Source: Sneathiella sedimenti (GTDB lineage: Bacteria > Pseudomonadota > Alphaproteobacteria > Sneathiellales > Sneathiellaceae). From it: a DNA stretch of 64,000 bases. The DNA lies in contig NZ_JAFLNC010000001.1 of the NCBI RefSeq assembly GCF_017313765.1, positions 682,001-746,000 of the forward strand. The letters run 5' to 3'. Below the pieces are notes generated by a model. That model was not told where the DNA came from. It ran no database searches and saw only the letters and a program-made list of their open reading frames with translations. The position numbers were made by a program, and so were the translations under genes. Of the stretch, positions 9,499 through 15,034 are shown one piece after another. Within the stretch, counting starts at the first letter, position 1; each line of letters opens with the position of its first letter.

Positions 9499-10851
9499 TT
9501 AGCTGCCCGTGCTGATCTCGCGGACGATCTCCGCCTCGATCACGTCCGGATTATGGGGCCCGCGATCTGCTGTCCGCCAAGAGAAACTGTCAAAGCTGTC
9601 GCAGGCCGGGCAATGGGCGTGCCATTTTTCTTCCTGCCTGCCGCAGGCGTTGCAAATCCATAGTGGATCCTGCGGCGCGACCGAGCTTTTGACGATCCAT
9701 TCACGCGCAGCAAATGCATCGGCATTGGCTTTTTCCTCCAACTCCGCCAGCATCCGCAAAATACTTGCAGAAGGATTATCTCCTCCCGCCCTCATCAGAT
9801 GCTCGCGCGCCGGGCCCCAGTCGTTGGACGCCAGCGCCGCCTTGGCCAGCATTAGGTGTGTTTCGACATGATCAGGATTATGCGGTGCCACAGTCTCCTT
9901 TGCGCGACGGAACCAGTCGGAGGGCTGTTCACCGGAGACCGTGTTGCGAATTGCTTCCGCCAAATCACGGTGTGGCGCATTTTTCCAGGTCTCCCCGATC
10001 AGCTTATGCAATTTGCGTGTTGATCCCTGTTCGGCCGTCAGTTTCACATCAAGCACGGCGGCGGGGACGAAAGACGGGTCGATCTCATGGGCCTGCTGTG
10101 CAAGGGACAAGGCATCCGACTCGCGTTTTTCTTTTACCGCCGTAAGGGCCTGCTGATAGGTAATCACGGTTCTGGCGCGGCGGACTGCCTCCCCTTTTGC
10201 AGCTTTCCCTCGGGCAAGCCGTGTGAGCGCACTCTCTGCCCCTTCCCAATCGCGGAGTTTCAAGGAGAGCTCATAGAGTTCCTTTGTCACCCAGTCCGTG
10301 CCAGGACGCAACTCATCCGCTCTTTTGGCAAGGCTTCGCGCTTTTTCAACGTCGCCCTCCTTAATCGCCCGATTTATCAGTCCGCGCAGGCCCAGGAACT
10401 CTGTATCCTGACGCGACATCATCCGATCATAATATATGCTCGCCGCACGATTATCGTCATTTAGCTCAGCGGCCTGCGCTGCGAGCAAAAGCGTCATGGG
10501 TTCCCCCGAAAGATGCTTTTCCGCAGCGACTGCCTGACGACGGGCTTCAACCGCATCCCCGGCCGCAATGGCGACCATACCGCTTGAGATCGCCTCGAGC
10601 CCCTTGTTGCGGCGGCGTTCCGAAAAAACAGCGCCTATCCGCCCGGGACCATGCTTCAACCAAACCCAGAAGCGGTAAAAGAGCGCGACCAGCACGGCAA
10701 AAACAAGCACCGCCGCCCCGACGACGACGACTGAAGTCTCGACGACATAACCGCCCCAGGTCAGGCGGACATCTCCCGGATAATCCGAGAGCCAGACCGC
10801 TGCGATCGCTATCAGAACAATCAGGGCGAAGACAAAGATTGTGCGTATCAT
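9499..10851 (-). CDS. hemY: HemY-like membrane TPR protein of the heme operon
   Basis: A 450-residue protein with two N-terminal membrane segments (about 3-22 and 38-60, with the conserved WLSDYPGDVRLTWGGYVVET between them), followed by a tetratricopeptide-rich region. The C-terminal segment has CNACG and CPAC pairs, resembling a zinc ribbon as in alphaproteobacterial HemY. The start at 10851 (MIRTIFVF) is chosen over an upstream frame that would overlap the preceding gene. It follows the HemD-mitofilin gene after ten bases and probably shares its transcript. This is the proteobacterial TPR HemY, not protoporphyrinogen oxidase; its exact role in heme synthesis is not settled. Confidence 0.9.
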   Translation of the reverse strand: MIRTIFVFALIVLIAIAAVWLSDYPGDVRLTWGGYVVETSVVVVGAAVLVFAVLVALFYRFWVWLKHGPGRIGAVFSERRRNKGLEAISSGMVAIAAGDAVEARRQAVAAEKHLSGEPMTLLLAAQAAELNDDNRAASIYYDRMMSRQDTEFLGLRGLINRAIKEGDVEKARSLAKRADELRPGTDWVTKELYELSLKLRDWEGAESALTRLARGKAAKGEAVRRARTVITYQQALTAVKEKRESDALSLAQQAHEIDPSFVPAAVLDVKLTAEQGSTRKLHKLIGETWKNAPHRDLAEAIRNTVSGEQPSDWFRRAKETVAPHNPDHVETHLMLAKAALASNDWGPAREHLMRAGGDNPSASILRMLAELEEKANADAFAAREWIVKSSVAPQDPLWICNACGRQEEKWHAHCPACDSFDSFSWRTADRGPHNPDVIEAEIVREISTGS

Positions 10852-10861
10852 GTCGGCCCCT

Positions 10862-12943
10862 CTAGTTGGACGTTGGCTGGGAAATGGCCGTCGTGGTTGC
10901 CTCCTGCAGCAATCCGGCAATGGATTGTTCGACCGTCAGGCGGGTTTTGGCCTTGTCGAGCCAGGACGCCGCCACCTCTGCCGGGGCGCCCGAAAGCTTT
11001 TCAATTTCCGCAACGGCGTTATCGAGATCGTTCTCAGCAAGGTCCTGCTCCGCCCGAGCGACCACCGCATCCACGTCATTCCCCTCCATATCATCGACCC
11101 GCCGGAACTTGACGGCAGATGCAATACGGTGAAGTGCTTCTCCGTACCAGGTCTCCTCCGACGGAAGCCGTGCCGACTGGCTGATATCTGAAGCAATTAC
11201 AGTGAAATCCTTTTGCAAGCTCGCCAGCGTCGGCGCGCCAACCGGGGCAATCGGCTGCAGCTTTTCGATTAGCCCGTTGAACTTATCATCGGCAACAGCG
11301 GCCACCTGCTTCAGGCCATTTTCAAACGGTTCGTTTCCGCGGGTTTCCCGCTGAAGCTGGCTGATGGCAAGCAGCATCAGGGTGCGCTGGTTTTCCGCCT
11401 CCCCTTCCGATTTGCTTGCGATCTCCGCCTTCAGCGTGCCCTCAAGCGAGGACAGCTGCGCCGCCTGTGATTTAACTGCCTCCCGATCACTCGTGATTGT
11501 CGTTTCAAGGCTGGTAATCTGCCTTTTTATATCCAGCAGCGCTGTCTTGAGGTCGACGATCTCGCTCTGTATTTCCGGACTCGGATCAGCGACAACCGGA
11601 TCAGCATTTTCAAGCTTTCCGAGGTTTTCCTTTTGCTGGTTAAGCTCTTCCAGCGCGGCGGAAAGCTTTTTCTGTTGTTCTGCAAGCTCACTGGATAGCC
11701 CGCTAAGCTCTTCCTTTAATGACCCCGATAGCGCCGTTAGCTTGCCGTCATCTACCCCAGGGCTTGTATTCACCACCGGAGCTGAATTTTCAATCTTGGA
11801 GACCCGCTCTGACAGGGAAGCATAGTCCGATTTCAGATTGTCCCGGATCGCCTCAATCGCGGCCGTCGCATCTGACATATCCGAGCCGGACGACTTTCCA
11901 AACTGACCGGAAATAATTGCCGCCGTTTCAGTCGGCAGATAGGGCTCCAACTTCGGATAAAGAAGGGGCCATGCTGCAAGACCAAGACAAAACACAACGA
12001 TCAACAGCAGAAACACAAGTCCGGCGCGGGATTTCGGCGCCGCAGGTTCTGGTGTTACAGGGGATTCCGTTCGCGCAGTATCCTTATTGTCCGCTTGTGC
12101 GTCCCCGGTCTTTTTCCTATCCGTACCGGCAGAGGGTACAGCAGCTTTGCCTTCATCCTCGGTCTTGCCAGACTTTTTATCGGACATGTTTCGCTCCCTT
12201 GGCATATCGGCAGTATTTTCCTGAGTCCTAGCTTGGCTGACAGCCGCAAGCAAGGCAAGCAGGTTTTCCTGATCGGGCTCCGCCGCAACATGGATACCCG
12301 CAAATGACAGTGGTTCAAGTTTGTCGGCAACGGCCTGACTTAAACAGTAAGCCGTTATCTCTTTCATATACGGCGTGAGACCCGCCGTCGTTACCAGGTC
12401 GACAAAAATCGCCGCTGTACGCGGGGAATAGAAAAGCACAGCCGAAATGACGCCACTTTTTAATTCCCTCACAACCTCTCCGTCCAAAGACGTTACAGGC
12501 AATGCTTCATATAGGACGACGCGCGCGCACTGAAACCCCTTTTCCGAAAGCATCCCGGCTAGATCCCCGGCAACTTCGGAACCGGCAACATGAATAAGCC
12601 GGCCGTTTTCCGGCAGACATTCAGCGATCACCTTGGCGGCAAGTGAGTTGACCTCCCCACCCGCGGCGTGAACATCTTTAAAGCCCTCATGGCGAACCGC
12701 TTCGGCCGTCGCGGCACCAACGGCAAAAACCTTTATATCCCGGGGCTTCAAAGCCCGACCCAATGCCCGTGCGCCATTTGCGCTTGTCACCAGGAGCGCC
12801 TGAGCGCCGGTGATATCCACCTGCTTTCCGCGTAGGTTTTCGATATGCATCATCGGCGCAAGGCGTGTTTCGTGCTCCATTTTCTTCAAAATGCGGGCTA
12901 GACGGCTGCCGTCCGGTTCGGGTCTGGTAATCAGTATTTTCAT
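10862..12943 (-). CDS. hemD: Uroporphyrinogen-III synthase fused to a mitofilin (Mic60)-like protein
   Basis: One uninterrupted 693-residue frame. Residues 1-240 are uroporphyrinogen-III synthase (HemD; start MKILITRPEPDGSRLA, SANGARAL, and YSPRTAAIF), which closes and isomerises hydroxymethylbilane. Residues 253-693 look like alphaproteobacterial Mic60/mitofilin: a Lys/Glu-rich cytoplasmic stretch, one membrane helix (about 308-328), a long coiled coil (about 370-530) and a helical C-terminal mitofilin domain. Most alphaproteobacteria carry these as neighbouring separate genes between hemC and hemY; here no stop codon separates them. At the joint, an AAGGGAGC ribosome-binding site five bases before Met253 (12187) would allow the Mic60 part to be made alone. 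So the product may be a fusion, two proteins, or both. Confidence 0.9.
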   Translation of the reverse strand: MKILITRPEPDGSRLARILKKMEHETRLAPMMHIENLRGKQVDITGAQALLVTSANGARALGRALKPRDIKVFAVGAATAEAVRHEGFKDVHAAGGEVNSLAAKVIAECLPENGRLIHVAGSEVAGDLAGMLSEKGFQCARVVLYEALPVTSLDGEVVRELKSGVISAVLFYSPRTAAIFVDLVTTAGLTPYMKEITAYCLSQAVADKLEPLSFAGIHVAAEPDQENLLALLAAVSQARTQENTADMPRERNMSDKKSGKTEDEGKAAVPSAGTDRKKTGDAQADNKDTARTESPVTPEPAAPKSRAGLVFLLLIVVFCLGLAAWPLLYPKLEPYLPTETAAIISGQFGKSSGSDMSDATAAIEAIRDNLKSDYASLSERVSKIENSAPVVNTSPGVDDGKLTALSGSLKEELSGLSSELAEQQKKLSAALEELNQQKENLGKLENADPVVADPSPEIQSEIVDLKTALLDIKRQITSLETTITSDREAVKSQAAQLSSLEGTLKAEIASKSEGEAENQRTLMLLAISQLQRETRGNEPFENGLKQVAAVADDKFNGLIEKLQPIAPVGAPTLASLQKDFTVIASDISQSARLPSEETWYGEALHRIASAVKFRRVDDMEGNDVDAVVARAEQDLAENDLDNAVAEIEKLSGAPAEVAASWLDKAKTRLTVEQSIAGLLQEATTTAISQPTSN
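12185..12200 (-). promoter_or_regulatory. Internal ribosome-binding site and start codon inside the hemD-mic60 fusion
   Basis: On the minus strand AAGGGAGC, five bases, then ATG (codon 253 of the fused frame), which opens MSDKKSGKTED, a typical start for the cytoplasmic tail of a Mic60 protein. Such a good site at the domain boundary is unlikely to be an accident and suggests separate translation of the second domain. Confidence 0.6.
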
Positions 12944-12954
12944 TACAGTTCAGT

Positions 12955-13896
12955 TTACAACCCAAAAGACAAATTGGCACCCTTTGCCTGATTCTTTAGA
13001 TTATGGCCAATATCCTGGCCAAGTCTAACGGCATCAGCGATATCTCCCCGCCCGCTGGCATCCAGCCGGATAGAGCCATCCTCCGCAAGGAGGCTTGCCT
13101 GTAAATAAAGACTGTTCCCGTCTACAAGTTCCGCATAGCCTGCAATAGGCGTGTGACAGGAACCGTCAAGCACCTCCAGCATGGCGCGTTCACAGTAAAT
13201 TCGGGACCGACTGACCGAATCATTGATCGGCGCGAGCAAAGTGGCCACCTCCTCAGCCGTCTCCCGACGTTCAATCCCGATCGCACCTTGTGCCACGGCA
13301 GGCAACATATCTTCCACATTGAGAAGTTCCGTGATGACGCTCTCGTTGCCAAGCCGCTTGAGACCTGCCAGCGCCAGCATGGTGGCCTCTGCCTGACCTT
13401 CCGCAAGCTTGCGAAGTCGCGTCTGGACGCTGCCGCGGAAAATACCCACCCGAAGGTCGGGGCGCCGGTTAAGAACCTGCGCCTGACGGCGAAGGCTGGA
13501 TGTGCCAACGAGCGCTCCCGCCGGCAACTCGGCGAGGCTCCTACCGGTCGCGGAAATAAAAGCGTCACGCGCATCTTCACGTGGCAGGATGCAATCAATA
13601 ACAAGGCCTGCTGGCAGCCGCGTCTCCATGTCTTTCATGGAATGCACGGCGAAATCTATCTTGTTTGCGAGCAAAGCTTCTTCGATCTCTTTAACGAATA
13701 ATCCTTTGCCCCCGACTTCCCTGAGCGCGCGATCCTGAATCTGATCCCCCGTCGTCTTGATGACTACGATCTCCAGCTGCGCCGGATCAAGGGCGTCCTT
13801 GTGCGCCTCTAAAAGCCGCGTGCGTGTCTCCTCGGCCTGCGCGAGTGCAAGAGGGCTTCCCCGGGTTCCAATCCTGTATTTTTTGACAAAGGTCAT
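12955..13896 (-). CDS. hemC: Hydroxymethylbilane synthase (porphobilinogen deaminase)
   Basis: A 313-residue enzyme that links four porphobilinogens into hydroxymethylbilane, the substrate of the HemD domain encoded 11 bases downstream. It starts RIGTRGSPLALAQA and has SMKD, the RRQAQ segment, and DGSCHTPIAG with the cysteine that binds the dipyrromethane cofactor. I placed the start at 13896 (MTFVKKYRIG), where family similarity begins; ATG 13929 is an alternative. A start at 13983 would overlap divergent tsaD and is unlikely. The 67-base gap to tsaD must hold both promoters. Confidence 0.95.
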   Translation of the reverse strand: MTFVKKYRIGTRGSPLALAQAEETRTRLLEAHKDALDPAQLEIVVIKTTGDQIQDRALREVGGKGLFVKEIEEALLANKIDFAVHSMKDMETRLPAGLVIDCILPREDARDAFISATGRSLAELPAGALVGTSSLRRQAQVLNRRPDLRVGIFRGSVQTRLRKLAEGQAEATMLALAGLKRLGNESVITELLNVEDMLPAVAQGAIGIERRETAEEVATLLAPINDSVSRSRIYCERAMLEVLDGSCHTPIAGYAELVDGNSLYLQASLLAEDGSIRLDASGRGDIADAVRLGQDIGHNLKNQAKGANLSFGL

Positions 13897-13963
13897 GTTG
13901 CGGGATATTCCGTCAGATGTTAGAGCCATATGCAATTTTGCACCGCCTTGTAATAGATAACAA

Positions 13964-15034
13964 ATGCCAAACAAACAAGTCATCGTCCTCGGGCTGGAGA
14001 GCAGCTGCGACGAAACAGCGGCCGCGGTCGTGACAGGGGAGAAGGAAATTCTCTCTAATGTCGTGCTGTCGCAGAACGACGCCCATGCCCCCTTTGGCGG
14101 CGTTGTGCCAGAAATTGCTGCGCGCGCTCATGTAACGGAAATGGACAGGTTGGTCGATCAGGCAATGACGGAGGCCGGGGTGTCCTATTCAGACCTGTCC
14201 GCCGTGGCCGCAACGGCCGGGCCGGGCCTTATTGGCGGCGTTCTTGTCGGGCTGATGACGGCAAAGGCAATCGCCTCGGTCGCTGGCGTGCCGCTGATCG
14301 GTGTCAATCACCTGGAGGGCCATGCGTTGACAGCGCGGCTTACGGACGATGTCGCGTTTCCCTATCTCCTTTTACTGGTTTCCGGCGGGCATTCGCAAGT
14401 GCTGGTGGTCGAAGGCGTGGGACAATACCGTCGCCTCGGCACTACCATTGACGATGCGGTCGGTGAGGCCTTTGATAAAACCGCGAAGATGCTGGGACTT
14501 GGTTTCCCCGGCGGCCCGGCTGTTGAAAAGGCTGCGGCATCTGGAAATCCAGATCGATTCGACTTTCCCCGGCCCATGAAAGGACGTGAAGGATGTAATT
14601 TTTCCTTCTCCGGACTTAAGACGGCGGTTCGACAGGCACGCGAAAAACTGGGGGAAGAGGCGGGCGAAACGGATATCGCCGATCTCGCCGCCAGCTTTCA
14701 GAAGGCTGCTGTGGAAAGCCTGATGGATCGCGTAGCCAAGGCTCTTGACCTCTTCGTTGAGGATCACGGCAATGGCGGGACGCTGGTCGTCGCGGGCGGG
14801 GTTGCCGCCAATCAATATTTGAAAGGCGCGTTGGAACGGCTCGCACATGACAAGGGCATACAGTTGAAAGTACCCCCGCCGAGACTTTGCACCGATAACG
14901 GCGCGATGATTGCCTGGGCGGGTATCGAGCGTTTGAAAGCCGGATTTACGGATGGTCTGGACCTCATGGCCCGCGCCCGATGGCCGCTGGATCCCGATGC
15001 AGAACCCGCACCCTTTGCAGGCTATAAAGCCTAA
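13964..15034 (+). CDS. tsaD: tRNA N6-adenosine threonylcarbamoyltransferase
   Basis: A 356-residue TsaD/Kae1 protein, which transfers the threonylcarbamoyl group to A37 of ANN-decoding tRNAs together with TsaB and TsaE (not encoded here). It shows ESSCDET at 12-18, the metal-binding pair His116/His120 in NHLEGH, SGGHSQ, and the C-terminal ASFQKA and TDNGAMIAW motifs. It is divergent from hemC, a common alphaproteobacterial arrangement, and is followed by rpiA after 22 bases. Confidence 0.97.

Follow-up and report, generated by a model that had tools for sequence, protein, structure and literature searches.

A maintained HemD-Mic60 fusion in Sneathiella with a putative internal start for free Mic60

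Mic60 is a bacterial protein related to the organiser of mitochondrial cristae, and in the locus studied here it sits in a row of heme genes, a placement for which we found no explanation in the portions of the literature available to us. The locus lies in a stretch of 64,000 nucleotides from Sneathiella sedimenti, hereafter called the window, where hemD, the gene for uroporphyrinogen-III synthase, and mic60 are read as one frame. We asked whether this fusion is real and lasting, and whether Mic60 is made there only as the tail of HemD or also as a protein of its own.

The fused gene is a single open frame of 693 codons on the minus strand (window 10862-12943), coding for 693 residues with a predicted mass of 73.8 kDa. 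Residues 14-229 (12257-12904, minus strand) match the Pfam family HEM4 (PF02602) at 121.1 bits against a cut-off of 27.5 (E = 5.2e-35) and cover profile positions 2-230 of 231. Residues 474-681 (10901-11524, minus strand) match Mitofilin (PF09731) at 74.1 bits against a cut-off of 27.4 (E = 1.5e-20), and residues 606-683 match the MIC60 chain of a solved structure, PDB 7pv1 (E = 2.8e-5). With an open frame and both domains above their cut-offs, the original prediction that HemD and Mic60 share one frame of 693 codons was borne out. A structure model from a 19-row alignment had a mean pLDDT of 72.8 and a pTM of 0.35; the modelled sequence carried one extra residue at the front and lacked the last residue, and model numbering is one higher. 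The HemD domain was well predicted, in blocks with pLDDT mostly 84-90, and Foldseek matched it to solved HemD structures (4es6, E = 8.6e-12; also 3re1 and 3mw8); all 13 matches at E up to 0.001 are titled uroporphyrinogen-III synthases. No mitofilin structure was among the best 50 Foldseek matches of the fused-protein model. The Mic60 part was modelled as helices 308-336, 359-387, 401-446 and 457-534, that is, a predicted transmembrane helix (11939-12025, minus strand; model helix 308-336 and a hydrophobic segment) followed by long helices of coiled-coil type. Ahead of this helix runs a predicted disordered linker, at about residues 241-305 (12029-12223, minus strand; model residues 242-306, pLDDT under 50).

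The neighbouring genes place the fusion in a heme gene row. Upstream on the minus strand is hemC (12955-13983; TIGR00212, 335.1 bits), with 11 nt between its stop codon and the hemD ATG (12944-12954), and downstream is a hemY-type TPR protein gene (9499-10851, minus strand, ATG at 10851; Pfam HemY_N, E = 4.9e-27). The gene on the opposite strand at 13964-15034 we take to be tsaD. The Shine-Dalgarno (SD) site of hemD is weak, with an energy weaker than -4 kcal/mol in 13 of 19 Sneathiella rows; translation of hemD, with so weak a site and a start 11 nt beyond the hemC stop, may therefore be coupled to hemC translation. The hemY-type protein has a tail resembling the zinc ribbon of LapB (PF18073, at 24.3 bits slightly below the cut-off of 25.7; residues 421-446 of the frame 9499-10920). 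Promoter-like sites numbered 3 against a shuffle mean of 2.1 and terminator-like sites 11 against 6.0; we used neither.

We searched 25 genomes of the family, the window's own included, and 24 matched. The window's genome falls in a genus with the named members S. litorea, S. chungangensis and S. chinensis, and the S. litorea protein is 83% identical to the window protein. HemD and mic60 form one frame in 21 of 24 Sneathiella genomes, counting one with part of HemD (G010), and the fused proteins of the genus reach as low as 33% in identity to that of the window. The other three are a genome whose contig ends after the joint (G019), S. glossodoripedis (G009), where indels break the frame in hemC, hemD and mic60 and the joint itself is open, and a 66% complete genome with no match (G006). 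The joint is open in 23 of the 24 genomes, which are all those whose sequence spans it, S. glossodoripedis included. The only sampled genome of another genus in the family (G024) is fused too, with a linker that holds no SD-preceded ATG. A single HemD match was found in 22 of the 24 genus genomes, one split over two contigs in G010 and none in G006; in the window's genome, the fused gene is the sole HEM4 match. Because each has one HemD, the 23 matching Sneathiella genomes encode HemD only as the fusion. The fusion observation is therefore confirmed, and a joint open across the genus, together with the conserved SD codon pair described below, shows that it is more than chance. The original prediction had considered the fusion recent; we reject a recent loss of the hemD stop codon, since the fusion is found genus-wide, in G024 and beyond the family in other parts of the class.

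In a sample of the class Alphaproteobacteria, mitofilin matches occurred in 194 of 386 genomes. We inspected all listed matches with a frame of at least 525 aa, plus some shorter ones, and took listed frames under 525 aa as too short for a fusion. Among 89 fetched loci, 36 were fused (one genome, G052, counted twice), 48 had the genes apart and 5 were without one part; of 79 named loci, 22 were fused, 52 apart and 5 without one part, and since loci were chosen for long frames or similarity, the proportion fused should not be read as a frequency. Ten of 168 loci lacked HemD or Mic60. Sixteen of the 22 fused named loci are Sneathiella or relatives without a species name, and the others include Terasakiella, Caenispirillum and Rhodovibrio. 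Outside Sneathiella, the fusion is present in at least 34 class-sample genomes plus G024, and a tally of group codes gives at least 22 families with it, Sneathiella's own included. The G052 genome, a single contig (C1; loci L065 and L066), has three copies of the mitofilin match: a pair in opposite directions close to its start and a third close to its end, possibly an assembly artefact. The second G052 copy (L066) and two loci of the S. glossodoripedis genome (L061 and L192) were excluded from linker and frame statistics. A quick tree built from 94 rows (47 of them fused; 12 of the 79 named loci taken) required 18 state changes, of which well-supported branches force only 3. The 98 unfused loci hold 98 different HemD domains, and in 30 of them mic60 lies in the frame of hemD, with exactly one stop between in 15. 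These 15 loci indicate that one mutation can join or part hemD and mic60, so that loss of the hemD stop stands as a plausible route to fusion, if not as a recent event. None of 19 stretches of viral contigs that matched a pattern encodes a relative, and the 16 matching plasmid records each had their best place inside residues 1-236, with coverage of the query below 80% in every case.

A custom profile also detected a helix-turn-helix stretch before the membrane helix in 37 of 164 alphaproteobacterial Mic60 frames, fused or free (L063, L064, L070, L081-L085, L089, L091-L093, L105, L108, L111, L114, L115, L121, L124, L228 and others). The stretch corresponds to the NCBIfam family carph-isopro (NF046037), at 60.0 bits in L093 and 66.6 bits in L228 against a cut-off of 38, and would be a DNA-binding-like domain on membrane-anchored Mic60. 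It was absent from the window protein in Pfam and NCBIfam profile searches (for NCBIfam, among the best 25 families), and a literature search under the domain name carph-isopro found no paper.

Having established the fusion, we turn to whether its Mic60 part has a start of its own. On the minus strand, an SD sequence AAGGGAG (12200-12194) precedes an ATG (12187-12185) by 6 nt. The original prediction had placed a ribosome-binding site at the joint, counted as AAGGGAGC with a spacing of 5; its presence stands, with sequence and spacing as given here. Initiation at this ATG would yield a predicted free Mic60 of 441 aa (10862-12187, minus strand), and the sizes of about 75 and 47 kDa originally proposed for the two products become, as predicted from sequence, 73.8 and 46.9 kDa. 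The model puts the start within the linker predicted to be disordered, with a folded part on either side, and because it falls there the short form would be the whole of Mic60.

The linker was first assessed by a synonymous-codon shuffle scored on the best SD energy, in which P was 0.157 in the window gene and ranged from 0.013 to 0.503 over 21 Sneathiella rows, with 5 of 21 under 0.05; one row (L047) had its best score at a different site. This weak test alone does not support an internal start. It has low power because the residues already demand G-rich codons. The column-wise codon comparison was carried out after it, on 19 Sneathiella genes (33-83% identity to the window protein) threaded with their DNA; G010 and G019 were left out for their contig ends, as was G023, whose contig stops near the 3' end, and G009 (indels) and G006 (no match) were unusable. 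The AGG-GAG codon pair within the SD has a pairwise synonymous identity of 0.981 against a median of 0.374, and ranks first of 382 two-codon windows, which makes a firmer case for a kept site than the original prediction could have made. The codons are AGG 15, GGG 2, GGA 1 and GGC 1 at column -4, and GAG 18 and ATA 1 at column -3 (n = 19 for both). Column -4 is the only one with AGG in 6 or more rows, and elsewhere in the alignment AGG makes up 62 of 569 Arg codons. In the start column 10 rows have ATG and 9 have GTG, and GTG stands there also in G010, G019 and G023, giving ATG or GTG in all 22 genus genes inspected; GTG accounts for 232 of 858 Val codons elsewhere. On a tree built without the linker only two ATG-GTG changes are needed, so the weight of the start column lies in which codons were used over long branches. 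In one genome (G012) the SD is missing from its usual place. The energy of the internal SD is stronger than that of the hemD SD in 19 of 19 rows (medians -7.6 vs -2.2 kcal/mol) and similar to that of hemY (median -7.4 kcal/mol, 18 rows with a start found). A hairpin hiding the SD was considered and rejected: there was no common pattern, and the unpaired probability of the SD ranged from 0.24 to 0.87 over the 19 rows. With a conserved SD and start codon inside one frame, the internal start looks to be under selection, which supports it as a putative source of free Mic60, as originally suggested.

An alternative is that the fused protein is the sole product and that AGGGAG-ATG is a relic of the unfused pair or merely slows ribosomes. 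The weakness of the linker shuffle would suit this explanation, as would the 21 of 41 fused loci outside Sneathiella, G024 among them, in which no linker ATG is preceded by an SD, which suggests that fused-only lineages may exist; the other 20 do have such an ATG. A relic, however, should decay at synonymous positions, yet no codon pair in the gene is better conserved than AGG-GAG, and all 19 rows have kept ATG or GTG as the start codon. We therefore regard a fused-only product as unlikely in Sneathiella. In favour of an internal start, outside the genus an SD precedes 22 of 62 ATGs in linkers vs 17 of 230 within the parts coding for HemD and Mic60 (Fisher P = 1.8e-7). For TTG an excess is doubtful (7 of 32 vs 37 of 358, P = 0.07), and GTG shows no excess (6 of 65 vs 62 of 627, P = 1.0), which slightly lowered our confidence in the overall reading given below.

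The conserved joint could instead be a protein motif, REQxM/VSDK, rather than a translation signal. Conservation of SDK after the start in many rows fits such a motif, but the conservation reaches into codon choice: Arg is AGG in 15 of 15 rows despite six possible codons, Val is GTG in 9 of 9, and two of the four rows in which Arg has become Gly retain GGG-GAG. These patterns make a protein motif very improbable. Finally, a sequencing or assembly error that joined two genes has a negligible probability and is rejected: the locus can be misread, as the frame breaks of S. glossodoripedis (G009, L192) illustrate, but the stop codon or frameshift between the domains that the original prediction had named as a possible assembly error is contradicted by the same one-frame arrangement in 21 genus genomes.

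We consider it quite likely, then, that Mic60 anchors HemD to the membrane and is also made in free form. In this reading, hemD and mic60 of a hemC-hemD-mic60-hemY gene row would have merged into one frame before Sneathiella diversified. Because hemD is without its own stop and the searches gave no second copy, every HemD should be tethered by Mic60, presumably at the cytoplasmic face of the inner membrane. Selection would keep the ribosome-binding site and start codon of Mic60, and because it appears to do so, ribosomes would also start at 12187 and produce free Mic60, perhaps in excess, since the internal SD is stronger than that of hemD. Fused and free chains may co-assemble through their coiled coils, and the resulting Mic60 assemblies would bear HemD units in limited number, close to HemC and HemY. 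The product of HemC is unstable and later steps of the heme pathway are membrane-bound; the likely benefit would be to hold HemD beside both.

From these sequence comparisons we conclude that the fusion is real, maintained, old and of a recurrent kind, and that the conserved putative start inside it is its notable part. A genus in which HemD is encoded only with Mic60, and Mic60 is probably also made alone, offers a genetic handle on the link between heme and Mic60, and the two products, if both are made, could be removed one at a time. More speculatively, and on balance somewhat unlikely, Mic60 may have begun, or long served, as a membrane scaffold for alphaproteobacterial tetrapyrrole synthesis, with repeated fusion to HemD; lineages of the Sneathiella type would use the internal start to set how much Mic60 carries the enzyme relative to how much is bare, and the contact of mitochondrial MICOS with ferrochelatase would be a remnant.

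Several known systems resemble parts of this arrangement. In E. coli, CheA and IF2 are each made in a long and a short form through an internal in-frame start. Likewise, the Sneathiella gene has one frame, a second SD and start, and a putative short form that lacks the N-terminal domain; unlike CheA and IF2, it owes its long form to the joining of two genes, and its short form would correspond to the second gene alone. Fusion of HemD to a membrane protein also has a parallel. The hemX gene adjoins hemD, and in the fused HemD/HemX protein (NCBIfam NF005411, PRK06975) HemD likewise has a membrane protein from the heme gene row as its partner, HemX in place of Mic60. HemX was rejected as the partner in the window, as it was not among 17 Pfam families up to E 1 or among the best 25 NCBIfam families. 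We found no paper on a HemD-Mic60 fusion in the open-licence literature, and domain databases may already list the pair. The closest gene order is the alphaproteobacterial HemC-HemD-mitofilin-HemY operon, head to head with tsaD (PMC7641849), whose order is that of the minus-strand row in the window; the accessible portion of that source gives the genes singly and mentions neither a fusion nor an internal start, whereas the window has both, the start as a putative one. Alphaproteobacterial Mic60 has been described, in the text available, as bending membranes and having a role in intracytoplasmic membranes (PMC12136173). Our findings also bear on reports, as far as their available text goes, that MICOS or Mic60 of mitochondria is associated with ferrochelatase (PMC9133952, PMC9163361). 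Both cases would tie Mic60 or its complex to an enzyme of the heme pathway; in mitochondria the tie is a complex with the last enzyme, whereas in the window it is a covalent link to HemD, an earlier one.
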